The notes beneath the pieces were generated by a model, which had not been told where the DNA came from, ran no database searches, and was given only the letters and a program-made list of their open reading frames with translations. Shown here one piece after another: positions 5,980-23,839 of a stretch of DNA of 64,000 nucleotides (position 1 is its first letter; each line of letters starts with the position of its first letter). This DNA is from Micropruina glycogenica (GTDB lineage: Bacteria > Actinomycetota > Actinomycetes > Propionibacteriales > Propionibacteriaceae): contig NZ_LT985188.1 in the NCBI RefSeq assembly GCF_900289045.1, forward strand, positions 3,162,001 through 3,226,000. The letters are read 5' to 3'. A program made the position numbers and the translations under genes.

Positions 5980-6086
5980 CCGCCCCAAATCCCGGCCACT
6001 GAGCCCCCACCCACCTCTCTGTGGTGGTTCGGCGCGCGGCTCCCACGCTCTTGAACGGGCGACAACCCGCCAGGCATGCTTGAGTT

Positions 6087-12151: not shown

Positions 12152-12330
12152 GCGGTGACAGTACCCGCGCGGTGCGTCCACAGGTGTGGGTAAGCCTGTG
12201 GAGAACTACACGGCTGTAATCTCGGGCGCGCCCGCTCGGCGTCAGGCGGTAGCTAAGACTGCGACCCAACGAAGACCTGGGTGCTCGTTCAGTGCGAAAG
12301 CTCAATGTCATGTCGGTAATCGAGACGCTT

Positions 12331-13401
12331 CTATGTCTTGTCAAGGGTGGTCGTGTTGAGGTGTCGGAAGATTTGGCGGGCGATGTAGCGCTTGAGGCAG
12401 CGTCGGATTCGGGGTTTGGTTTGGCCTTGCTGTTTGCGTTTCTTGACGTAGGCCTTGGTGGTTTCGTCGTGTCGCATGCGGGTGTTCGCGATGGAGTTCA
12501 GGGCTGAGTTGAGTTGTCGGTCGCCGGTGCGGTTGAGGCGATGATCCTTGGAGTTGCCCGAGGAGATCTCCAGGGGGCAGACGCCGCCGATCTTGGCGAA
12601 GCCGGCTTCGTCATGGATGCGGCCGGGGTGAGACCAGACGGCGAGCACAATGGCGGCGTTGATGGGTCCGAGGCCGGGCAGGTCGAGCAGGGTTGGTTCG
12701 AGTTCACGCACGAGGGCGTTGATGGCTTTCTCGTTGCTGTCGAGGTCGGCGTCCAGGGTGTGGATGCGGGTGGCGAGGCGGTGCGCTTCGGTGCGGGCGA
12801 TCCGGGCCAGGGTGGTGTCGGTGGGCCGCTTGCGCCAGCCCGCAATGAGGCTGATGTGGACCTTGTTGATTCCCTTGCGGGCATCGATGTCGAGGTTGTG
12901 GGTGCGTAGCAGCGCGGTGAGCTGGTTCTTGGAACGGGTCCGGTCGCGTCGCATGCTGTCGCGGGCGGTGAGCAGGATCTGCAGCGCGGCACGGGTATGG
13001 CCGGCGCGTCGGTCGGCGAGCCGTTCGCTGTCCTTGGGTAACGCGCCGCGGGCAGCGACCAGGGCATCGATGTGGTCGTTCTTGCCGCTGCCACGAGCCC
13101 GTTTCGGCGAGGGTGCGTCGACGACCCGGTAACCGCGTGCGGCGAGCAGCTCGGCTGCCTGGGCGCCGTAACTGCCGGTGCCTTCCATGCTGATCAGCAC
13201 CTGGTCGACAGCTGGGTTGTCGTCAACACTGGTGCGGCGGCTGATCCAATCCACGGCCCGCAACAAGCCCGCGGCATGGGTGGGGAACTTCCCGTGGGTG
13301 ATCTGGCCGCCGCTACGGGTCTCCACGATCGCGTAATGATGAGTGGCGGCGTGGGTGTCCACACCCACCACATAGGTGTAGGTATCTGCAACGATGGCCA
13401 T
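12331..13401 (-). CDS. IS110 family transposase (DEDD recombinase)
   Basis: 356 residues from the ATG at 13401, which has an AGGAGG site. The N-terminal RuvC-like domain carries D15 (VVGVDTHAATHH), E73 (SMEGTGSYG), and D109 and D112 (KNDHIDA), the DEDD set of the family. The C-terminal Tnp2 domain has the helix-hairpin-like LPGLGPINAAIVLAVWS and the reactive serine region EISSGNSK (S280/S281). All key residues are present and the frame is intact, so the enzyme may be active. It marks the left end of the accessory island. Confidence 0.95.
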   Translation of the reverse strand: MAIVADTYTYVVGVDTHAATHHYAIVETRSGGQITHGKFPTHAAGLLRAVDWISRRTSVDDNPAVDQVLISMEGTGSYGAQAAELLAARGYRVVDAPSPKRARGSGKNDHIDALVAARGALPKDSERLADRRAGHTRAALQILLTARDSMRRDRTRSKNQLTALLRTHNLDIDARKGINKVHISLIAGWRKRPTDTTLARIARTEAHRLATRIHTLDADLDSNEKAINALVRELEPTLLDLPGLGPINAAIVLAVWSHPGRIHDEAGFAKIGGVCPLEISSGNSKDHRLNRTGDRQLNSALNSIANTRMRHDETTKAYVKKRKQQGQTKPRIRRCLKRYIARQIFRHLNTTTLDKT

Positions 13402-13792
13402 CGGTGTCTGAGCCTCCTGTTTTCGGGATGTTGGGCATCGAGCCGGTCGAACCGGCGCGGCCATCCCGGGGAAAGAGTCACCCGTGGCGTTACTGTGATC
13501 GGTCACCCCGCCAAAGCGGTGGGACGGGCTTCTATCAGGCCAACGAGTGGGCCGGGATGGTCGGCCGGTTCTCCGTGCACGAGCCGGACAGATCTCGACC
13601 AAGACACCCCGCACAATTGCGGACGGTCAGCTTGTCGAAGGGTCACGACCCGCACACGAACAACCGGTCCCACCACCCTGCCAGCTAGCCCCAGGCCAGC
13701 CACCACCAACTCTCACAGCTTGTCGAGTCCGTCCGGTCATGCCGATGATCGAGTCCGTCTGACGGCGCCTCGCGACCTCGGATTCCGCCTTG
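13402..13792 (-). ncRNA. Candidate bridge-RNA region of the IS110 element
   Basis: No gene lies in this 391-bp stretch upstream of the transposase. IS110 recombinases use a structured guide (bridge) RNA encoded in this position. Small GC-rich hairpins are visible: CCGGT-CGA-ACCGG at 13443-13455, CCGC-CAAA-GCGG at 13508-13519 and CCGCA-CAAT-TGCGG at 13609-13622. Partial family-B repeats occur near 13629 and 13719. The RNA limits and target/donor loops are not assigned; this is inference from family architecture. Confidence 0.5.
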
Positions 13793-14755
13793 TTACGCGC
13801 TGTCGGGGTCCACGAGCGAATCGCGCATGATGACTATCGGCTTCGCCTTGCCCGCCTTGCTTGCCGAGGTCTCTGGCGGAAGCGCACGAACGGGCATGAG
13901 GTAGACCCGAACCCCAGAGAGATCGAGGTAGCGAGGTGCGCTCTCGGGCCCGTCGCTCGGGAGGTTCAACGGCCTGCCCGAAAGGTTCATGATTACCAGA
14001 TACGCGCTGTTCTTGCCGTAGTCCTGAGCATAGAGAACGGCTTGATGCAGTCCACCGGCAATGCCTCGCTTGTCACCTGTGAACAGCTTCACTTCACAGA
14101 TTAGGGGGTCTTCGGTGTCCAGATCAGTCAGCACATCTGAGAGGCCAGATGCACTCTTGGCTTGGCTGTAGGGCATGTTGATCCCTTCTCGGAAGAGGAA
14201 CCGCCGCAGGGCTTGGTCGTAGACCCTCTCGCCGTTTGCAGTGTCAGCCTGATAGGCAATGTACAAGTCTTCACGAACGAACCACTCAACGTACCGAACG
14301 AAGCGATCGAGTATATACAGGACACTGCTTTCACCCGCCACGTGGTCAATGAGATAGTCGAAGAAGGGTTGATAGATCCGCTCGACCAGTTCGCGTGCGG
14401 AGTCATTCAGGTTGTTGCTGGAACTCAAACCATGCCCAAAACTCAGGACACCCTGTTGGCCCTGAGGGTCATCGGCGACGGCGTTGATCACGGCCCATGC
14501 CAGCGTCGCTCGCCCTGCCTCAGTTCTAGAGTGCCAGTTGAACCCGTAGTGGCCATAAAACGACTTCATCCAAGTATCGATGTCCAACTCCGGCTCGACT
14601 CTCGCCGCGTCCTCTACCAACGAAATGAGCTTGGCCTGCTTGCTTAACCATTCCCGAAACAGCGCCGTTTCGTGACTCAAGGTCTCGAAGCCTTGGACCA
14701 GGCATCGACGGTACCGCTCGCGCAAGGCAACCTGCAGGTCCTGCTCAGTCCGCAT
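13793..14755 (-). CDS. PD-(D/E)XK nuclease-like protein of a putative defence island
   Basis: 320 residues with two parts. Residues 1-175 are helical and unrecognised. Residues 180-300 contain a PD-(D/E)XK core: D207 in GLSDVLTDL, E221 and K223 in LICEVKLF, then Q238 in LHQAVLYAQDYG, followed by a beta strand. That spacing is typical of restriction-like endonucleases. The start overlaps the stop of the zinc-ribbon gene (TGATG), implying co-translation. Base composition is lower in GC than the surrounding core genes, suggesting transfer. DNA cleavage in defence is inferred from context. Confidence 0.7.
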   Translation of the reverse strand: MRTEQDLQVALRERYRRCLVQGFETLSHETALFREWLSKQAKLISLVEDAARVEPELDIDTWMKSFYGHYGFNWHSRTEAGRATLAWAVINAVADDPQGQQGVLSFGHGLSSSNNLNDSARELVERIYQPFFDYLIDHVAGESSVLYILDRFVRYVEWFVREDLYIAYQADTANGERVYDQALRRFLFREGINMPYSQAKSASGLSDVLTDLDTEDPLICEVKLFTGDKRGIAGGLHQAVLYAQDYGKNSAYLVIMNLSGRPLNLPSDGPESAPRYLDLSGVRVYLMPVRALPPETSASKAGKAKPIVIMRDSLVDPDSA

Positions 14756-14979
14756 CAGAGGAGTCCTTTCAATGCGTCCGCGATCAGATTCTCAATAGTC
14801 CGGCCGGCCAGGCTCATGCCACCATGATCATCCTGCAGTTGAACACGGATCCGGCAGCAGGGACACAAAACAACGGTCTGCACGATGATCTCTGACATCC
14901 GCACCCAGAAGCTGAAGTGACAGTTGGGGCAGTCGAGGTCGACATCCGAATGCAGCCACTGGGTGGATAGGTCTTCCAC
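14755..14979 (-). CDS. Small zinc-ribbon protein
   Basis: 74 residues with two CxxC pairs, CPNC at about 17-20 and CPCC at about 39-42, separated by a beta-rich SFWVRMSEIIVQTVVL. This is a rubredoxin-like zinc ribbon. The C-terminal half ends in a short helix (TIENLIADALKGLL). It is translationally coupled to the nuclease gene and probably works with it, for example as a DNA- or partner-binding subunit. No named family was recognised. Confidence 0.6.
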   Translation of the reverse strand: MEDLSTQWLHSDVDLDCPNCHFSFWVRMSEIIVQTVVLCPCCRIRVQLQDDHGGMSLAGRTIENLIADALKGLL

Positions 14980-15164
14980 CCCGCCATCCTAGAGCCGTAT
15001 CCGGAGCGCAGCACATGTTGCTCACGCATTTCCCGAACACGGAGCAGTGCCCGACGTCACTCGGCCGAACTGCCCACTCTTGAGGGCCAGCAGATGTTGC
15101 CCCAACTTCGGCGGCCCTTGCGTCAAAGAACCCGGAGCCCGCACAGCCGCCGCTGGCCGCGGGT

Positions 15165-17417
15165 TTACATCCCCTTCAACAGGGGGCTGGGGCCCGACGG
15201 TCGCAACACTCTCCAGGAACCGCGCCCTGTAGAGAACGAGAGCTTCAGGTGATCGATAACGGCTTGCTCCTCGCAATTCGGCAGAACCGCTGTGAGACGA
15301 GCGGTGGCTGGAGCATTCAGCTCGGTGTCTAGCTTCACGCGGGCGCTGCCCTCCTGATTAATGCTGCTCAATGAAGCCACCGGCTCGTCGAGTTCCAACC
15401 TCACCTCATCGGCCGTCGCGTGGACGTCCCGGACGCGGGCGTGGCAGTGGCTTCCCCAACTCACGACGAGCGGATCAGACGCCGCAACCGATTGCAGGGA
15501 GTTCAGGTTTCTTCTCGACATTCCCCGAACAATCAGCTCACACAGGTCCTGAACCGGCGATTCGCTGACCTCTGGCACAACCTTGATGCGATCCGCCGAA
15601 ACACCGATGGCCCTTAGCCGGTCAATCACTGGCCCGGGGTTGAGATCGGCGATCACGACCGTGGAGTTGGTCGTTCCAATAGCTGACCGGAGCATCGTGC
15701 CGGTCGTAGTATCCGTTGCCGGTAGCGAGTACCCCAACAAAAACACATGGGACGCGGCCTCGAGGCGCTGACGCGCCTGCTGCCAAAACTCCCGAAGCTG
15801 GGGGGAGCCATAGAACGGTGACTTTGTTGCCGTCGGCGGCACGAGGAAGGGCACGCGTCCGGGTAGCTCTCGTTGGCGATCACCTTCCTCGTAGACGGCC
15901 GGGCGAAGCCAACTCCCCGGTAGCCCACGCTTCGCAACAGTTGCCCCCGTCGAATCCCCTGGGCTCCAGTACCAGTTGAGCGACCCATGCAGCTTCAACA
16001 GTCTCATGGTCTCACGGCGCGTGGCGGCAAGTCGGGCCGGACCCGGTGGCCATGCTGGAACTCCACCTGTGAGTTCGTCCCAGAAGAACGGGTCGAAGTA
16101 CCCCTCCCCGTGCGCATCGTCAAGCGGCCCGAGAGGCGAGGCAACCAAGCACTCGAGCAAGGTGTCGTAGTTGAATGTCACCACGCCCGCCTTAAGTGTG
16201 TGGGCCACCACAATCAACCCCACCAGCCATGGCGGGGGGCCGCTGGCCAGCACCTCGTGTTGGCGTGCGCCGAGAATCGTTCCTATCGCGGAGCTGAACC
16301 GCTCGAACAGAGCATGATTCTCGCCGTTCTCAGCGGAGTCTAGAAACGGTTGATCCGCAGCGAGTGCAGAAAGATAGGTCTCGAAGAAACCGCCGGAGAA
16401 CTCATTCGGTCCGTCGGACGGAAGATGCTGCCTGAGTAGTGGAAGGCATAGGTTCCCAAGCTCATCGGTCAACGGCATGCGGTGATCGACTGCGCGTGAG
16501 AACCCTGCGCCGAGGACGAAAGTGGTCGGGCCCGCCGCCGGGTCAAATGAGCGCTCGTCCCACGCATTCAGACTAGGTGCAGTCATCTTGCGGCCAAGCA
16601 TCGCACGTGCCGGGCCATGGTCCGCCCGAATACTCCGACATCCGATCATGCCGCCGACAGAGACGCATTCCGTGAGTGGTCGGGATCTTGTGGTGCTCGG
16701 GGGGATGGCGCCACGAGCGAGGCGGAAGCCCAGGTCATCGAACTTGGCCGTGGGGTTGGTCTTGCGGCGGACGCCAGCGCGGCAGCTCCACTCTGGGTCG
16801 CTCCATCCACCACCACGGATGATGCGGTATGAACCGTAGACCGCCGTGTCGTACAAGTCCCAGCACCATTCCCACACCCCGCCCAGCATGTCGAACAACC
16901 CCCACGCATTCGGCTCCTTCATCCGCACGCGGTGGATGCTCCCGCCAGAGTTGCCCGCGTACCAAGCGATGTCGTCCAGGTCGCCGTAGCGGGCGCCACT
17001 GCTACCGGCACGGCAGGCGACCTGCCACTCGGCATCGGTGGGAAGACGGTAACCATCAGCCGCGCGGCGCCAGACGACGACCCAGTCGTCGATCTCCGGC
17101 TCGCTGTGCGCCCGCCACTGCGACGGCTCGGGGACGACACGCTGAGAGACCTCGTAGACCGGCGTGAGTCCCTCCCGAACGGACAGCGCATTGCAGAACA
17201 GGACCGCGTCACGCCAGCTCACGTCCGTCTTCGGAAGGTCCGCCTCTGCCAGGTCATTCGGGGTGCGGTGAACCTCGTTCCACAGGCCGCACGTGACCAC
17301 GGTGGCTGACAGTCTGAAGGGCTCGACACGTACCGTCCAGGACAGGTCCGTGCGACGGTCCACCACCGTCTCGTCCACCGCGCCCTGCGGCAGGACTTCG
17401 ACCAGATTCACGCTCAT
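15165..17417 (-). CDS. Formylglycine-generating-enzyme-like / SIR2-like fusion protein
   Basis: 750 residues from ATG 17417. Residues 1-235 are an FGE-sulfatase (SUMF1) domain: RLPTDAEWQVACRAG, WGLFDMLGGVWEWCWD, RIIRGGGW and DLGFRLAR. The first of the two catalytic cysteines of true FGE is missing (only C212 near the end), so it is probably a binding domain. Residues 295-640 are SIR2-like: GAGFS 303-307, TFNYD 414-418, LHGSLNW with H477, and GYSLPATD 562-569. A ~110-residue C-terminal domain is unrecognised. SIR2-like domains in defence proteins hydrolyse NAD+ on phage sensing. A family link to defence is known; the role here is inferred. The 236-285 linker could hide an old gene boundary. 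Confidence 0.8.
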   Translation of the reverse strand: MSVNLVEVLPQGAVDETVVDRRTDLSWTVRVEPFRLSATVVTCGLWNEVHRTPNDLAEADLPKTDVSWRDAVLFCNALSVREGLTPVYEVSQRVVPEPSQWRAHSEPEIDDWVVVWRRAADGYRLPTDAEWQVACRAGSSGARYGDLDDIAWYAGNSGGSIHRVRMKEPNAWGLFDMLGGVWEWCWDLYDTAVYGSYRIIRGGGWSDPEWSCRAGVRRKTNPTAKFDDLGFRLARGAIPPSTTRSRPLTECVSVGGMIGCRSIRADHGPARAMLGRKMTAPSLNAWDERSFDPAAGPTTFVLGAGFSRAVDHRMPLTDELGNLCLPLLRQHLPSDGPNEFSGGFFETYLSALAADQPFLDSAENGENHALFERFSSAIGTILGARQHEVLASGPPPWLVGLIVVAHTLKAGVVTFNYDTLLECLVASPLGPLDDAHGEGYFDPFFWDELTGGVPAWPPGPARLAATRRETMRLLKLHGSLNWYWSPGDSTGATVAKRGLPGSWLRPAVYEEGDRQRELPGRVPFLVPPTATKSPFYGSPQLREFWQQARQRLEAASHVFLLGYSLPATDTTTGTMLRSAIGTTNSTVVIADLNPGPVIDRLRAIGVSADRIKVVPEVSESPVQDLCELIVRGMSRRNLNSLQSVAASDPLVVSWGSHCHARVRDVHATADEVRLELDEPVASLSSINQEGSARVKLDTELNAPATARLTAVLPNCEEQAVIDHLKLSFSTGRGSWRVLRPSGPSPLLKGM

Positions 17418-17499
17418 GCCACCCATTCTTGATGGTCGCACTACCGAGAACGACCACGAGTTCTCTGAACATCCGCCTATGCCGCAGGTAGTTGGATGT

Positions 17500-17793
17500 T
17501 CAGACGGCTTCGAGTGGTTCGATTCGGTCGAGGCTGTTGCCGAGGTGGTCCTTTTCGACTTCGAGGTCGTAGCGGATCTGGAGGTTGAGCCAGAACCGGT
17601 CGGTGGTGCCGAAGTAGCGGGCGAGCCGTAGTGCGGTGTCGGCCGTGATGCGGCGCTTGCCGTGGACGATCTCGTTGATGCGACGTGGCGGCACGCCGAT
17701 TGCGACGGCGAGCCGGTTCTGGCTGACTGCGAGCGGCTCGAGGAACTCCTCCATCAGGATTTCGCCGGGGTGGATGGGTGTAGTGGTCGTCAT
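17500..17793 (-). CDS. higA: HigA-type antitoxin
   Basis: 97 residues, an XRE-type helix-turn-helix protein of the HigA/VapI family: HPGEILMEEFLEPLAVSQNR at the N-terminus, then PPRRINEIVHGKRRITADTA, and DRFWLNLQIRYDLEVEK. It neutralises the adjacent HigB-like toxin and normally represses the operon with it. Toxin-first gene order (HigB at 17803-18084, then HigA 9 nt later) is the classic higBA arrangement. Confidence 0.9.
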   Translation of the reverse strand: MTTTTPIHPGEILMEEFLEPLAVSQNRLAVAIGVPPRRINEIVHGKRRITADTALRLARYFGTTDRFWLNLQIRYDLEVEKDHLGNSLDRIEPLEAV

Positions 17794-17802
17794 GGCACCT
17801 CC

Positions 17803-18084
17803 TCAGTGGTAGTCGACGATCTCGACGTCGATCGGTCCGGCGTCGGTCCAGGTGAAGCAGATCCTCCACTGCTGGTTGATCCGGATGCTGTGCTGGCCGG
17901 CCCGGTCTCCCCGGAGTTCTTCGAGCCGGTTGCCCGGTGGCACGCGCAGGTCGTCCAGGGTCTCAGCGGCATCCAGCATCACCAGCTTCCGCAGGGCGGC
18001 TCGTTCGATGCGTGGGTCGATGGTCTTGACCCGTTGGCGTGACCAGAGCCGCTCGGTTGCCGAGTCGCGAAACGACCTGATCAC
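17803..18084 (-). CDS. higB: HigB/RelE-type toxin
   Basis: 93 residues beginning IRSFRDSATERLWSRQRVKT and ending with RGDRAGQHSIRINQQWRICFTW...VEIVDYH, the standard plasmid-maintenance-killer (HigB) pattern with conserved Arg, Trp and terminal His. Such toxins cleave mRNA on the ribosome. The GTG start at 18084 is preceded by TATAGT (complement of 18091-18096) with a 6-nt gap, so the transcript is probably leaderless. Its 3' neighbour is HigA. Its start overlaps the end of the alcohol dehydrogenase frame. Confidence 0.9.
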   Translation of the reverse strand: MIRSFRDSATERLWSRQRVKTIDPRIERAALRKLVMLDAAETLDDLRVPPGNRLEELRGDRAGQHSIRINQQWRICFTWTDAGPIDVEIVDYH

Positions 18085-19232
18085 TCATTCACTATAACGC
18101 AACGCGTCATGCCCGCTTCTGCCGCAGGTCGCAGGTTTGCATCTTCCCTGCCATCCCGTGGCACTTTGTGCCCAGCAGGGGTCGGTGGTGCTGTCGCCTC
18201 ACGTCCCACGGTCGCGACCACGATGCCTGCCGCGGCAGAGACCGGACGATCCAACGCCATCAACTCCTCGCTCGCCTGGGTCAGGTCGACCACACGCCCG
18301 ACCAACTGGCCGGGGTCGAGGGCGCCGGTCTCGATCAGTGCCAGCAACTGGGGGTATTCGGCCGCGGCCATGCCGTGGCTGCCCACCACGGTGAGTTCGT
18401 GGGCGATCACCCGGTCCCACGGCAACGGGGCGTTCGCGTTGGCGCCGAGCATCAGCCCGGCCTGCACGTGCCGTCCGCGGCGACTCAGGCCGAGCACGCC
18501 GGCGGACGCCGTGGCCGCCGATCCCACGGCGTCGATGCTGACCTGCGCACCGCCCTGTGTGATGTCGCGGATCACCTCGGGGTCGGCCTCGGCCAGCACC
18601 CGGGACGCCCCAAGTTCAGCGGCGCGGTCGCGAGCCGAAGCCGACGGATCGACCGCGATCACGCGAGCGCCCAGGGCGTGCCCGATGAGCACAGCCGACA
18701 GTCCCACCCCGCCGCAACCGATCACCAGCAGCCAGTCGTCGCGTGCGAGCTGGGCCTGAGTGGTCAGGGCGTGGTAAGCGGTGGCGAACCGGCAGCCGAG
18801 TGCGGCAGCGGTGACGAAGTCGACGGCCTGTGGCAGTCGCACCAGGTTGAAGTCGGCGGCCGTCACGACCACCCGCTCGGCGAACGACCCGAGCCGGGTG
18901 AAGCCTGGCTGCTCCTGGTCGGGGCAGACCTGCGCGTGCCCGTCTCGGCACCAGGTGCAGCGGCCGCAACCGTTCACGAACGGCGCCGTCACCCGGTCGC
19001 CGACCGCGAAACCCTTGACCAGGCGGCCAACCTCACTCACGACGCCCGCGAACTCGTGCCCGGGCACCATCGGCAGCGGCACCGGATCGTGCCCGCGCCA
19101 CGCATGCCAGTCCGAGCGGCAGACGCCGGTGGCGCGTACGGCCACCACCGCACCGTCGGGCGGGCAGACGGGCTCGGGCAGGTCGACCATGGTTGGGGTC
19201 GCCCCGTAGTCGGGGTAGCTGATGGCATGCAT
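18081..19232 (-). CDS. Zinc-dependent alcohol dehydrogenase, with an aberrant C-terminal tail
   Basis: 383 residues, MDR superfamily. Catalytic zinc ligands are in GVCRSDWHAW and PGHEF; the structural zinc lobe is CGRCTWCRDGHAQVC; the NAD-binding loop is VIGCGGVGLSAVLIG. Homology ends at about VVATVGREATA (residue ~348). The last ~35 residues look like read-through into foreign DNA and cover the higBA promoter. The island therefore seems to have replaced the original stop codon. Substrate unknown. Divergent from the antitoxin gene at 19335. Confidence 0.85.
   Translation of the reverse strand: MHAISYPDYGATPTMVDLPEPVCPPDGAVVAVRATGVCRSDWHAWRGHDPVPLPMVPGHEFAGVVSEVGRLVKGFAVGDRVTAPFVNGCGRCTWCRDGHAQVCPDQEQPGFTRLGSFAERVVVTAADFNLVRLPQAVDFVTAAALGCRFATAYHALTTQAQLARDDWLLVIGCGGVGLSAVLIGHALGARVIAVDPSASARDRAAELGASRVLAEADPEVIRDITQGGAQVSIDAVGSAATASAGVLGLSRRGRHVQAGLMLGANANAPLPWDRVIAHELTVVGSHGMAAAEYPQLLALIETGALDPGQLVGRVVDLTQASEELMALDRPVSAAAGIVVATVGREATAPPTPAGHKVPRDGREDANLRPAAEAGMTRCVIVNE
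18091..18096 (-). promoter_or_regulatory. -10 box of the higBA operon
   Basis: TATAGT on the minus strand, 6 nt before the GTG of higB, a near-consensus -10 element placed for a leaderless transcript. It lies inside the extended 3' end of the alcohol dehydrogenase reading frame. Confidence 0.7.
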
Positions 19233-19334
19233 GGCAGCCGTACTATCAGACGGCGGCGCCGAGTCGCAGATCGCAGGAAGTATTGTAGATGTAACTGCAA
19301 TGTCCTACAGTTGTAGGTGCAGCCACTTGAGTGT

Positions 19335-19799
19335 ATGAGTGCGTCACGAACGGAGCCTGTCATCATGTCAACGATGCAATCCGGTTCCAGCCGCGTCCTG
19401 GTAACGGGTCATGAGGCGCGCCTGGCTCGAGATGTTCTTGAGCACCTGGAGGGTCCGAAGGGTGTGCTCGCGGTCGAACGCGATGGCCACCGCGCCGACG
19501 CTGTGCCTGCCGAGATCGGCCGTCTGTTGCAGCAGGTGCTCAGTGTGATGGCGCGCGGGGGTACGGTCACGATCGGCTCGGTGCCCGACGTTGTGACCAC
19601 CACCACTGCTGCGGGAATTCTGGGCGTCTCGCGGCCCACGCTTATGAAGATGATCGAAGAAGGAACGATTGCGGCCCACAAGGTGGGCACGCATCATCGA
19701 CTGCGGGCATGCGACGTTTTCGATGCACTCCGTGCGCGCCGTGCCCGCGAGCGGGCCGCTTTCGCCAAGCTTCTCGAACTTGAAGGCGACGAAGACTGA
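19335..19799 (+). CDS. Excisionase-type HTH antitoxin (partner of a PIN toxin)
   Basis: About 154 residues. The C-terminal half has a MerR/excisionase-like DNA-binding helix pair: TTTTAAGILGVSRPTLMKMI, then EEGTIAAHKVGTHHRLRACD, followed by a basic helix. This architecture is standard for antitoxins next to PIN-domain toxins in actinobacteria. The start is uncertain; ATG 19335 is preferred over ATG 19365. Its toxin gene is truncated (next entry), so it may be an orphan antitoxin. Confidence 0.75.
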   Translation: MSASRTEPVIMSTMQSGSSRVLVTGHEARLARDVLEHLEGPKGVLAVERDGHRADAVPAEIGRLLQQVLSVMARGGTVTIGSVPDVVTTTTAAGILGVSRPTLMKMIEEGTIAAHKVGTHHRLRACDVFDALRARRARERAAFAKLLELEGDED

Positions 19800-19838
19800 C
19801 TCCGCCGACAATGCCGACCCGGTGGCTAGTCTTCGTCG

Positions 19839-20020
19839 GTGCTCAACCCCGGCCGCTGGGTCATCTTCGTTGATTCAAACGTGTGGTATTCGCGCACGCT
19901 TCGCGAACGGCTGGGAATGCTGTACGTCACACCCGAAGCGCCGCCCTTCCACGTTCAATGGACCGACGATGTGCTTGCAGAGTTGCTCTACCACCTGCGC
20001 AAGCGGCATCCCCAGCCGCC
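19839..20020 (+). pseudogene. N-terminal remnant of a PIN-domain toxin
   Basis: GTG at 19839 follows TAGTCT (19827-19832) by 6 nt. The first ~58 residues are PIN-like: VIFVDSNVWYSRTLRERLGM with the first active-site Asp, then WTDDVLAELLYHLRKRHP with the Glu. At about 20015 the sequence changes to the inverted remains of a SorC-type regulator. The two further acidic residues of the PIN active site are lost, so no toxin activity is expected. Confidence 0.8.
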
Positions 20021-20412
20021 AGCACCGATTCGCTCCACGACGTGATGCCCACCACGTGACCGCGGGTCAGGGTGATGCCCAGATAGGCGGCGGTGGCGGC
20101 ACCCAAGGCGGCGCGCACCTCGGCGGGCTCTGCGTCGACCACCACCACGTCGCGAAGCCCGTAGTGGGCCTGCAGTTGGTCTTCGAGGTCGCCGTGCACG
20201 CCCGGCGGCATGGTGATCACCGTGGTGACGATGCCGAGGCTCTCGGCCTGCTTCAGCATGCGCGACACCCGGGCCTGTGACAGCTTGAGGGTCTCGGCGA
20301 TCTGTGGTTGCCGCACGCCCTTCTCGTGGTACAGCCGGGCCACCTTGGTGAGCAGGCGCAACTCGTCCAGACCCGGCACGCGGGCGGTGCGTCGCCCCGG
20401 TGTGGTCGGCAT
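20021..20412 (-). pseudogene. N-terminal remnant of a SorC/DeoR-type sugar-responsive regulator
   Basis: ATG at 20412 begins a SorC family regulator with its helix-turn-helix (LLTKVARLYHEKGVRQPQIA, ETLKLSQARVSRMLKQAESL) and the start of the effector-binding domain (GITLTRGHVVGITSWSESVL). Full-length relatives have ~320 residues; here homology stops after ~130 at the junction with the PIN toxin fragment. The DNA-binding part is intact, but the frame continues into meaningless sequence. Confidence 0.8.
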
Positions 20413-20493
20413 CTCACCCCATCGTTCTCTCGGCCTGGTCAGGGTCACGATACTGTGCGGCCCGGCCCGCGATCGCGCTTCTACTCTGGCCCC

Positions 20494-20832
20494 ATGCTTC
20501 CGACGTCCCCCGCCCGCGGCCTGGCAGCCGCGGTCGCCGCCGGCACACTCGCCCTGACCGGCTGCAGCCAGGCGGCAGTATCGGCCGCCGACCTTTACAC
20601 CATCGGCTGCCCCGCCCTGGACGCCGTCGCGGCCTCGGGTTCGGTGGCCGGCAAGGTGGCGCTGACGGGTCTGGAGAAACTGCGTGACTCGGGTCAGGTG
20701 ACCGGCGAGTCGAGGCAGTTTCTCGACCTGGCCATCACCTACCTCAAAGACCCGGCCAAGGTGCCCGCCGAGAGCAAGAAACAGATCAAGGCGGCCTGCA
20801 AGGCCAACGGCCAGGAGTTGAAGAACTTCTGA
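20494..20832 (+). CDS. Small putative lipoprotein
   Basis: 112 residues: a signal peptide ending in the lipobox LTGC (Cys24), then a small helical domain (YTIGCPALDAVAASGSVAGK ... ITYLKDPAKVPAESKKQIKA) with two further cysteines that could form a disulfide. Secreted and lipid-anchored; function unknown. The ATG at 20494 has TACTCT (20482-20487) 6 nt upstream, indicating a leaderless mRNA. Confidence 0.7.
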   Translation: MLPTSPARGLAAAVAAGTLALTGCSQAAVSAADLYTIGCPALDAVAASGSVAGKVALTGLEKLRDSGQVTGESRQFLDLAITYLKDPAKVPAESKKQIKAACKANGQELKNF

Positions 20833-20836
20833 GCGA

Positions 20837-21262
20837 CTACGTCGCGGGGTCGGGCGCACCGAGCAGCCGCCGCACACCGGCTCGGGCGACCAGCAGGAGC
20901 AACAGCAGACCGGTCACCGACCAGAAACCGCCCAGCTTCACCTGATCGGCGAACAACAGAGCTACCAGTTCGAGCACCACGAACTTGCTGCCGATCATCA
21001 ACCCCCACAACAGCAGCCCCGCACCCACCTTGCCCGGCGTGGTGGTAGCCGCCTTGAATCGGCCCTTGACATGGTCTTTCGCCCACACGACCACCTCGAG
21101 CACGACCTTGAGCAGCACTGCGGTCAGCAGCGACATGGTGAAGGTCTCGGTGATCACGACGGGTACGTACTCGATGGCCAGGTTCAGCACCACGACGTAG
21201 ACGAACACGTCGATGACGTCGACCGGGTTGACCACTCGCCGGCGCGCCACTGATTCGCTCAC
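20837..21262 (-). CDS. Integral membrane protein, unknown function
   Basis: 141 residues with four predicted membrane helices (VDVIDVFVYVVVLNLAIEYV, FTMSLLTAVLLKVVLEVVVW, GAGLLLWGLMIGSKFVVLEL, FWSVTGLLLLLLVARAG). GTG at 21262 is chosen because GGGAGG lies 5 nt upstream; an in-frame extension to 21334 lacks such a site. Family not recognised. Convergent with the lipoprotein gene, 4 bp apart. Confidence 0.65.
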   Translation of the reverse strand: MSESVARRRVVNPVDVIDVFVYVVVLNLAIEYVPVVITETFTMSLLTAVLLKVVLEVVVWAKDHVKGRFKAATTTPGKVGAGLLLWGLMIGSKFVVLELVALLFADQVKLGGFWSVTGLLLLLLVARAGVRRLLGAPDPAT

Positions 21263-21339
21263 CAAGGCCTCCCGCCCCATTCTGGCAGTTCCGGTACCGA
21301 TACCCGGGTTCGACGGGCACGGGTTCGTACGCACAACTA

Positions 21340-21641
21340 CCCAGGCGCTACTCGATGCCGCTCTCGGTGCAGTTCGCGGCCTTCGCCGAGGTGGGGCCGT
21401 CCAGCCAGGTGCTCGACGTGGGCTGCGGGCTGGGCGCGCTCACCGGCGAACTGGTGCGGTTGGTCGGCGCCGAGAACGTGCTGGCCTGCGACCCGTCCGA
21501 ACCCTTCGTGGCTGCCTGCGCGGCCCGCCACCCGGGGGTGGACGTGGGCTCGGTACCGCCGAGCAGGTGCCGTTCGGCGACGACTCGGCCGACGCGGCGC
21601 TACTGCCGCGCGATCAACAAATAGCGAGCGCATCAACCTGA
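21340..21641 (+). pseudogene. Truncated, frameshifted SAM-dependent methyltransferase
   Basis: Encodes RYSMPLSVQFAAFAEVGPSS, then the class-I methyltransferase motif I VLDVGCGLGALTGELVRLVG and ACDPSEPFVAACAARHPGVD. A frame change near 21550 follows, after which GTAEQVPFGDDSADAAL (motif II region) continues in the next frame. Both the N-terminal ~25 residues and the C-terminal ~130 residues of the family are missing. Non-functional remnant. Confidence 0.75.
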
Positions 21642-21653
21642 CCGGACACTAGG

Positions 21654-22829
21654 TCACCGCGCGGTCTTCACGACCAGTTCGTTGTCTTCGGGGTCGACGA
21701 TCAGCCAACGGTCGGCAGCTTCGCCCAGCAGGCGTCCGCCGGCGGTCAGGGCGGTCTCGACGCGCGTTCGGGCCGCGTCCGCCGGCACGGCCAGCTCGAG
21801 GTGCATGCGGTTGCGCTGCCGGCGCCGCTCGACCTCGGCAGGGTCGAGCTCTTGAAAGACCAGCACCGGGTTGAGCCGGCGCGGATCGTTGAGGTCGGTG
21901 ACGCCCTCGCGCCGGTCAGGCTCGTAGCCCAGCGCCGCCGCCCAGAACGCCCGCACCGCGGCGACGTCCGCGGCGTCCATGAACAGCTGCACGAAGCGGG
22001 GAAGGGTCGCATCGGCCGTGGCGCCGGCCTCACGAGCCGCCCGCTGCAGCCTGGCCGCAAGCTCGACGAAGTCGAGGTCGAGACCGTGGGCGTCCGCCTC
22101 CCAGCGGTCCTTTCCGCTGTCCAGGACGACCAGGCCGGGGGGCAGGTCGATCAGCAGCGGAAAGCCCGCCTCGTCGGCCAACGCGGCGAGTGCGACGGCC
22201 AGCGCACCCTGGGCCGCCGGTGACGTGGTGCGATAGCTCGCCACCGCGCCGAACACCGCCTGCCAGTCGCTGGTGGCGTCCGTCTCGCCGAGCGGGTCGC
22301 CGGGCACGACGTCGACCTCGTTGCCGTCGGCGTCGGCGTGGCAAACCCCGTAGGCACCGAACGCCTCGCCCAGACCCGCCTGCTCGACGACGGCGGCGGG
22401 TCGCACCACGTCGAGGTGTATGCGGTTGCGCAGCGGCCGCGCGTCCGCCGACTGCCGTAACGACAGGGCCGGATCTCTGCGCAACGGATCGACCAGGTCG
22501 CCCGTCGCCGCAGCTTCGTAGCCGAGCGCGTCCTGCCAGAACCGGCTCAGTGCGGCCGGGTCGGCGGATTCGACGACCACGCTCAGCTGTTGCAGCACGC
22601 CCGGATCGGCGACCAGGCCGAGCTCCTGTGCCGCCGCCGAGACGTCCCCGGTCTGCTCGGCCGCGTCGAGCCGCACCCGCACACCGGCCGACCGCAGGTC
22701 GATCGCGGCGCTGGGCGCCAGGCCCGCGATGCATGTTGCGAGCGCGGCCGCCGCGCTCAACGAAGGGGCGTCGAACCAGGTTGTCACGACGCCTTCGACC
22801 ACTCGCCAATCCGAACCGATCGCCGTCAT
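21654..22829 (-). CDS. Tandem pterin-dehydratase-like / VOC domain protein
   Basis: 391 residues. Two repeats of a pair of domains are visible: residues ~1-75 and ~195-265 resemble 4a-hydroxytetrahydrobiopterin dehydratase (PCD) folds without its active-site histidines. Residues ~85-180 (LSVVVESADPAALSRFWQDA) and ~275-390 (VQLFMDAADVAAVRAFWAAA) are VOC/glyoxalase-like, with metal-ligand-type residues in RIHLDV/RMHLEL and GNEVDV/DNELVV. Probably a small-molecule-binding or resistance-type protein. TACATT lies 7 nt before the ATG. Function unknown. Confidence 0.75.
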   Translation of the reverse strand: MTAIGSDWRVVEGVVTTWFDAPSLSAAAALATCIAGLAPSAAIDLRSAGVRVRLDAAEQTGDVSAAAQELGLVADPGVLQQLSVVVESADPAALSRFWQDALGYEAAATGDLVDPLRRDPALSLRQSADARPLRNRIHLDVVRPAAVVEQAGLGEAFGAYGVCHADADGNEVDVVPGDPLGETDATSDWQAVFGAVASYRTTSPAAQGALAVALAALADEAGFPLLIDLPPGLVVLDSGKDRWEADAHGLDLDFVELAARLQRAAREAGATADATLPRFVQLFMDAADVAAVRAFWAAALGYEPDRREGVTDLNDPRRLNPVLVFQELDPAEVERRRQRNRMHLELAVPADAARTRVETALTAGGRLLGEAADRWLIVDPEDNELVVKTAR

Positions 22830-22953
22830 GAGCGGCAATGTAGGCCACAACCGTGACGATCTGCGTCCGGTTGCCCAACGAAGAAACCGCAGCGCACACG
22901 GAATGAAATCTCCACGCAGGGAATATCGCGGTCACGTGCGGCCTTGTCGACGT

Positions 22954-23448
22954 GTGACCACTTCACCGGAACCCACCACCCTCGCCGACTTCGAAGCCCG
23001 CCGCATCACCGGCCAGGACCAGCGCCTGGCCGACTATCTCGGCTCGGTGGTGCTGGTGGTGAACACGGCGTCCAAGTGCGGTCTGACTCCGCAGTTCCAG
23101 GGTCTCGAGTCGCTGTACAGCGACCTGCGCGAGCAGGGGCTGGTGGTGCTCGGCTTTCCCTGCGACCAGTTCGCGAACCAGGAGTTCGCCGACGACGCCG
23201 AGACCGCCGACTTCTGCCAGCTCAACTACGGCGTCACCTTTCCGATGTTCGCCAAGGTGGACGTCAACGGTGCCGACGCGCATCCGCTGTTCGGCTGGCT
23301 GCGCTCCGAGAAGGGCGGCGTGCTGAATGATGCGATCAAGTGGAACTTCACCAAGTTCCTGATCGACCGCGAGGGACGTCCGGTGCGCCGGTACGCCCCG
23401 ACCGTCGAGCCGGCCGCCATCGAGGCCGACATCAGAAAGCTGCTCTAG
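22954..23448 (+). CDS. Glutathione peroxidase family peroxidase (Cys type)
   Basis: 164 residues of the GPx family. The peroxidatic Cys42 is in VNTASKCGLTPQFQGL; the catalytic Gln is in FPCDQFANQEF; the Trp-Asn motif is in KWNFTKFLID. Bacterial Cys-type GPx proteins usually take electrons from thioredoxin and reduce lipid and organic peroxides. Length is normal. The GTG at 22954 is the natural start (VTTSPEPTTLADFEAR). Confidence 0.93.
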   Translation: MTTSPEPTTLADFEARRITGQDQRLADYLGSVVLVVNTASKCGLTPQFQGLESLYSDLREQGLVVLGFPCDQFANQEFADDAETADFCQLNYGVTFPMFAKVDVNGADAHPLFGWLRSEKGGVLNDAIKWNFTKFLIDREGRPVRRYAPTVEPAAIEADIRKLL

Positions 23449-23462
23449 TAACAACTGATTCT

Positions 23463-23520
23463 CGCTGGTCGAGCCTGTCGAGCCCCCTCAACGCCGTGGT
23501 ATCGACAAGCTCGACCAGCG
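23463..23520. repeat. Family-B inverted repeat pair
   Basis: Arms CGCTGGTCGAGCCTGTCGA (23463-23481) and TCGACAAGCTCGACCAGCG (23502-23520) are inverted copies with one mismatch and a 20-nt loop. It may also terminate the peroxidase transcript, although there is no T-run. Confidence 0.85.
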
Positions 23521-23547
23521 GTGATCTCAGCGCTCGGAGAGTTCTCG

Positions 23548-23797
23548 TCAGAGGCCGGCGAGAAACTCGCGGATCAGCAGGTTCACCTTGACCGGATCGC
23601 GGCCTGCACCAGGTGCCCGCCGCCCTCGATCACGACCGACCGTCCACCGGTCAGCTCGGCCAGCCGAGGTCCGCGCCGAGGGTCCTGGCAGACGTCCATC
23701 GATCCCGAGATGACCAGCACGGGGCACCGCACCTGAGCGCAGACGGCCTCGGCCCCGGCGCCCACGAACCGATCGTCGTGCGGGGCGTCACACTCGA
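23548..23797 (-). pseudogene. C-terminal remnant of an alpha/beta hydrolase
   Basis: Minus-strand fragment: DAPHDDRFVGAGAEAVCAQV, RCPVLVISGSMDVCQDPRRG, VVIEGGGHLVQA with the catalytic His. A one-base deletion near 23600 breaks the frame, after which KVNLLIREFLAGL is found in the next frame before the original stop at 23548. The first ~200 residues, including the nucleophile elbow, are missing. Confidence 0.75.
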
Positions 23798-23839
23798 ACT
23801 ACCGGCGGCAATGCTTCCCTGGCTTGTTAGCGTGGAGGC

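Follow-up and report, generated by a model that had tools for sequence, protein, structure and literature searches.

A zinc-ribbon and putative nuclease gene pair in an acquired region of Micropruina glycogenica, probably a divergent relative of the candidate defence system PDC-M14

Composition and setting of the locus

The window analysed here is a stretch of 64 000 nucleotides from the Micropruina glycogenica genome, which is 3.84 Mb in length and assembled as a single contig. The features that concern us are listed in window coordinates; FGE denotes formylglycine-generating enzyme and G156 the genome of a congener.

12211..23819, no strand: acquired region of 11.6 kb, missing from G156 at the corresponding position (L084 compared with the window by blastn)
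12331..13614, minus strand: IS110-family transposase ORF (PF01548, PF02371)
13793..14755, minus strand: gene for the B protein (P0003), 320 aa, putatively of PD-(D/E)XK nuclease type (ORF, motifs)
14755..14979, minus strand: A-type zinc-ribbon gene (P0002), 74 aa, PDC-M14A-like (C17/C20/C39/C42)
15165..17417, minus strand: ORF P0001, 750 aa, with FGE-like and SIR2-like parts in one open frame
15165..16586, minus strand: SIR2-like gene standing alone, 473 aa when read from the probable native ATG at 16586 (GAGFS, FNYD, LHGS); outside the conserved pair
16651..17484, minus strand: block with the FGE-like ORF (start at 17417), 99% identical to G156:C4 from position 2123 onwards
16699..16704, no strand: run of six C, five in G156 (alignment with G156)
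17500..17793, minus strand: HigA-like HTH antitoxin (PF01381)
17803..18084, minus strand: HigB-like toxin (PF05015, E = 3e-21)

An initial annotation had described three same-strand genes as a putative defence module on an acquired island. The open reading frames at 15165–17417, 14755–14979 and 13793–14755 are indeed present, and the flanking IS110 element and HigBA pair are borne out by Pfam matches. The island also stands. At the syntenic place G156 carries 1.9 kb of other DNA (blastn) instead of the 12211–23819 segment, which contains the IS110, HigBA, FGE-like, SIR2, ribbon and nuclease genes. The lower GC content attributed to the module holds for the nuclease, ribbon and SIR2 genes (0.56–0.62) but not for the FGE part, where a value of 0.67 represents no drop. 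The third-position values divide in the same way, at 0.69–0.70 for SIR2, ribbon and nuclease and 0.82 for the FGE part.

The SIR2 and ribbon genes are separated by 185 bp on the same strand. A scan for consensus promoters found none where 0.7 would be expected by chance and is hence uninformative about a shared transcript. Among viral contigs no relative was found of either P0001 or the nuclease family, and a PHROGs search gave weak, unrelated matches only. By eye, an inverted repeat, CTGAACATCC...GGATGTTCAG (17466–17504), crosses the 5' edge of the FGE block shared with G156 and adjoins higA.

The FGE-like and SIR2-like parts of P0001

Both domains assigned to P0001 in the initial annotation are present. 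Residues 51–235 match the FGE-sulfatase family (PF03781, E = 4e-31) and residues of about 300–640 form the SIR2-like region, which matches a PADLOC SIR2 model (E = 4e-7) and, short of the curated cut-off, Pfam SIR2_2 (E = 0.0035). The GxGxS, NYD and HG motifs of SIR2 all occur, as GAGFS at 303, FNYD at 415 (N416) and LHGS at 476, and are kept in the aligned homologues; His477, the active-site residue named in the initial annotation, lies in LHGS. The fusion of the two domains does not, however, withstand scrutiny as an evolved architecture.

A search of 78 genomes of the same family located the FGE part in G156 at 99% DNA identity, compared with mostly about 67–85% in the syntenic DNA of the two genomes. 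The shared block is confined to 834 bp (16651–17484), and the close identity stops at about 16651, just past the FGE-like domain and ahead of the SIR2 part. The run at 16699–16704 has six C here and five in G156, a difference that shifts the reading frame: read with five C the FGE-like ORF reaches a stop at the junction, and with six it enters the SIR2 frame. The extra C may be a true mutation or else an artefact of sequencing. Three other FGE-like relatives are standalone proteins of 246–247 residues and the G156 copy continues into 80-odd residues of differing sequence, so the 3' side of this gene is variable. FGE and SIR2 homologues were separate in all the relatives read. An old FGE–SIR2 fusion was rejected on account of the end of the 99% identical block at 16651, the joining of the frames by a single C and the standalone relatives. 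As judged from these sequence comparisons, the apparent fusion is a recombination junction combined with a one-base frame shift, its parts being of separate origin, and the FGE-like gene appears to be a recently arrived passenger.

In G156 (L050:1144–3158) the FGE-like gene with 99% identity lies divergent to what is, by eye, a likely tyrosine recombinase, which could explain the mobility of the FGE-like gene.

Six clear homologues of the SIR2 part were found, in G006, on a Curtobacterium plasmid and in four more genomes of the class, together with two weak ones. The six are standalone genes of 350–460 codons, one of which (in G441) has a TGA inside the joined match. Since the aligned homologues begin shortly ahead of the GxGFS motif, the ATG at 16586 is most likely the native start of the SIR2-like gene. 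No nuclease, ribbon or FGE homologue was detected at the eight SIR2 loci searched. By eye, two of the SIR2 relatives adjoin a tyrosine-type integrase-like gene. On the Curtobacterium plasmid pW21 (L008:5995–7251) the annotated SIR2 start, at 6058, is too far downstream and omits the GSGFS motif. A sequence search of the PDB gave chance matches only for the SIR2 region, and a single-sequence structure prediction (mean pLDDT 39) was set aside.

The zinc-ribbon and nuclease pair

The ribbon and nuclease genes overlap by one base in the sequence TGATG, the coupling noted in the initial annotation, and its ribbon and nuclease assignments, including Lys223, have both gained support. The four cysteines of the ribbon CxxC...CxxC motif are invariant in all 18 aligned sequences. 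The B protein comprises an N-terminal helical module (residues 11–140 approximately) and a C-terminal domain with a signature of the QxxxY-type PD-(D/E)XK nucleases: Asp207, Glu221-x-Lys223 and Gln238xxxTyr242. Asp207, Lys223, Gln238 and Tyr242 are invariant in 25 of 25 sequences, and position 221 is Asp or Glu. The structure model (mean pLDDT 83) has a helical N-terminal half and a strand–helix–strand core (220–225, 230–245 and 250–257) that carries ExK and QxxxY; confidence is low for residues 195–215, Asp207 included. Foldseek returned nothing significant for this model, the best restriction-enzyme match being OkrAI (E = 0.33), with BamHI likewise among the insignificant matches, and a sequence search of the PDB found no relative of the nuclease. 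The nuclease assignment therefore relies on motifs and secondary structure, which point to a PD-(D/E)XK nuclease as the C-terminal effector of B.

The nuclease family is sparse in the sampled genomes. In the order it was found in one of 295 genomes, the window's own, and in the class in the same genome with one marginal match among 395. In total 36 loci were assembled, from five plasmids and 31 genome contigs. A ribbon gene lies directly upstream of the nuclease gene in 24 of these by tblastn and, by motif, in L034, which gives 25 of the 33 loci with enough upstream DNA (L020, L028 and L039, at contig ends, are left out of the count), distributed over five phyla. About a quarter of the loci thus have no recognisable ribbon, both cyanobacterial copies among them. 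The pair occurs in Streptomyces and other Actinomycetota, Chloroflexota, Neobacillus, Bacteroidota and Polaromonas, and in the pair loci A overlaps B by one or four bases. No homologue of the window's SIR2 or FGE parts lies in the flanks of any of the 36 loci, which were followed for 8 kb or until the contig ended; the comparison concerns homology to these particular proteins, other SIR2 families being outside it.

Two side observations concern individual copies. In the cyanobacteria (L035:4608–7514 and L037:4626–7514) the ribbonless nuclease gene follows a UvrA-like gene, assigned by domains in L037 and by position, size and a common Cys-motif stretch in L035. Four Streptomyces copies (L006, L025, L026 and L027) have the nuclease split into two frames near the middle; these are possibly decaying genes or sequence errors.

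Some copies of the pair are embedded amongst restriction genes. In L036 (4672–12655) the pair is flanked by the hsdS and hsdR genes of a type I system, and at L038 (4669–8636) it follows directly after hsdM–hsdS. The neighbours of other copies include NACHT, ABC-3C CTD2, HsdR and other defence-type genes.

Models of PDC-M14, a candidate in the PADLOC collection, detect part of this family. PDLC04449, a PDC-M14B model, matches 16 of 25 nuclease sequences (best E = 1.1e-7); P0003 itself has no PDC-M14B match, and the link goes via its homologues. All of the alignments inspected fall within the N-terminal 140 residues or so of B (from about residue 10 to 141), so that the homologues match in their N-terminal half and not over the whole length of the model. 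The PDC-M14A model scores P0002 at E = 0.0017 and matches four of 18 ribbons (best E = 0.00016), and the A and B genes are adjacent, as in PDC-M14. An hhalign comparison of the nuclease family with a profile built from four relatives of PDC-M14B, taken from the order that includes the Neobacillus metagenome-assembled genome, aligned the same N-terminal region over 122 columns (Prob 94, E = 1.4e-7).

PDC-M14B was detected in none of 198 genomes of the window's phylum and in 16 of 199 from the order of that Neobacillus genome. Weak matches restricted to the C-terminal part were taken as chance, since an earlier one (L102) proved to be a TetR-like regulator. Among the five strongest loci, which were read, L104 and L105 have A and B in tandem, L106 has them divergent, and L107 and L108 show no obvious ribbon gene beside B. 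In L108 (943–2091, minus strand) a PDC-M14B-type N-terminus is fused to a TIR domain (PF13676, E = 1.9e-9), which suggests that effectors have been swapped. This fusion, together with the restriction of the matches to the N-terminal region, leads us to regard B as a common helical module joined to a variable effector.

Interpretation and comparison with known systems

The reading that we favour, with a probability of about 0.62, is that a mobile insert has gathered these genes by chance. The ribbon–nuclease pair, a relative of PDC-M14, would be the only evolved unit, with the SIR2 gene separate and the FGE-like gene a passenger. We take the pair to be a candidate defence system on the grounds of its relatives in restriction and defence islands, the homology to PDC-M14 and the TIR-bearing relative.

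The initial annotation proposed instead a single three-gene module; in such a module the FGE-like domain would sense or modify something, SIR2 deplete NAD+ and the ribbon and nuclease cut DNA. The genes are close and co-directional, the FGE–SIR2 frame is open in this assembly, and GC3 is alike in SIR2, ribbon and nuclease. Nevertheless, we consider the proposal very improbable. The annotation itself had named a lack of co-occurrence elsewhere as grounds for refutation, and the families are not found together at the 36 nuclease and eight SIR2 loci (six of them clear): the nuclease loci lack SIR2 and FGE, and the SIR2 loci lack nuclease, ribbon and FGE. The FGE block is, moreover, of independent recent origin and its frame is joined to that of SIR2 by one C. 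The three-gene system was dropped for want of co-occurrence; a putative defence role survives for the pair.

It is also conceivable, if unlikely, that SIR2 and the pair moved together on a single composite island and work jointly at this locus today while remaining mutually dispensable elsewhere. Their common strand, the 185 bp spacing and their similar GC3, as against that of the FGE part, would fit such a history, but nowhere else in the two sets of loci do SIR2 and the pair occur together. Slightly less probable again is a role for the pair in maintenance of a mobile element, or as a toxin–antitoxin-like unit with the ribbon restraining the nuclease. A small protein gene followed by an overlapping nuclease gene, and the plasmid and island locations, would suit that role, whereas the embedding in restriction operons and the homology to PDC-M14, with its TIR-bearing relative, favour defence; some nuclease genes, in addition, have no ribbon partner.

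If the pair is indeed a defence system, A and B may form a complex in which A, as a nucleic acid- or protein-binding ribbon, acts with the helical module of B to restrain the nuclease until a signal of infection arrives. The helical module would couple sensing to the C-terminal nuclease, which might then cut phage or host DNA. The SIR2 protein would act alone, depleting NAD+ by analogy with DSR2 (PMC10981675).

Separating these components spares the pursuit of a false FGE–SIR2 and nuclease system. It also points to a branch of a catalogued defence candidate that probably carries a nuclease and has gone undetected, present in several phyla and sometimes within type I restriction operons, and suggests for PDC-M14 that effectors are exchanged on a common N-terminal module. 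We suggest tentatively, at somewhat less than even odds, that this module is a general adaptor for a zinc-ribbon partner with interchangeable effectors: PD-(D/E)XK here, TIR in L108 and the short C-termini of catalogued PDC-M14B. PDC-M14 would in that case be a modular, multi-effector immune family of which current models miss the nuclease branch.

The FGE-like protein resembles the SUMF1/FGE-like superfamily (formylglycine-generating enzyme, PvdO, EgtB) in its PF03781 match and its standalone relatives of 246–247 residues. Canonical FGE has two active-site cysteines, whereas the motif RGGGWSDPEWSC of the window protein has a single one (Cys212), which makes a role as a sulfatase activator unlikely.

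The SIR2-like gene is possibly a separate, single-gene candidate for NAD+ depletion. It shares with solo SIR2 anti-phage NADases, of which DSR2 is an example (PMC10981675), the SIR2 motifs including Asn and His and the standalone gene. It differs in that the SIR2-type core is its only recognisable part, and an NADase role and any phage trigger are putative.

The literature searched contained no mention of PDC-M14. According to PMC12988326, which cites Payne et al. (2024), the PADLOC PDCs are putative candidates identified by 'guilt-by-embedding', most of them awaiting validation. The pair is like PDC-M14 in having two genes, a small CxxC...CxxC ribbon protein A and a protein B with the same N-terminal helical module. 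It differs in that B, at 320 residues, has a PD-(D/E)XK-type C-terminus, the PDC-M14B models (261–276 positions) aligning over approximately the first 145, and in that A is one ribbon of 74 residues, whereas the A-like proteins of L104, L105 and L106 have 144–169 residues and a second Cys cluster. On these sequence comparisons the pair is best read as a nuclease-effector variant and divergent relative of PDC-M14, and the position of its relatives within restriction operons fits the 'guilt-by-embedding' definition given in PMC12988326.
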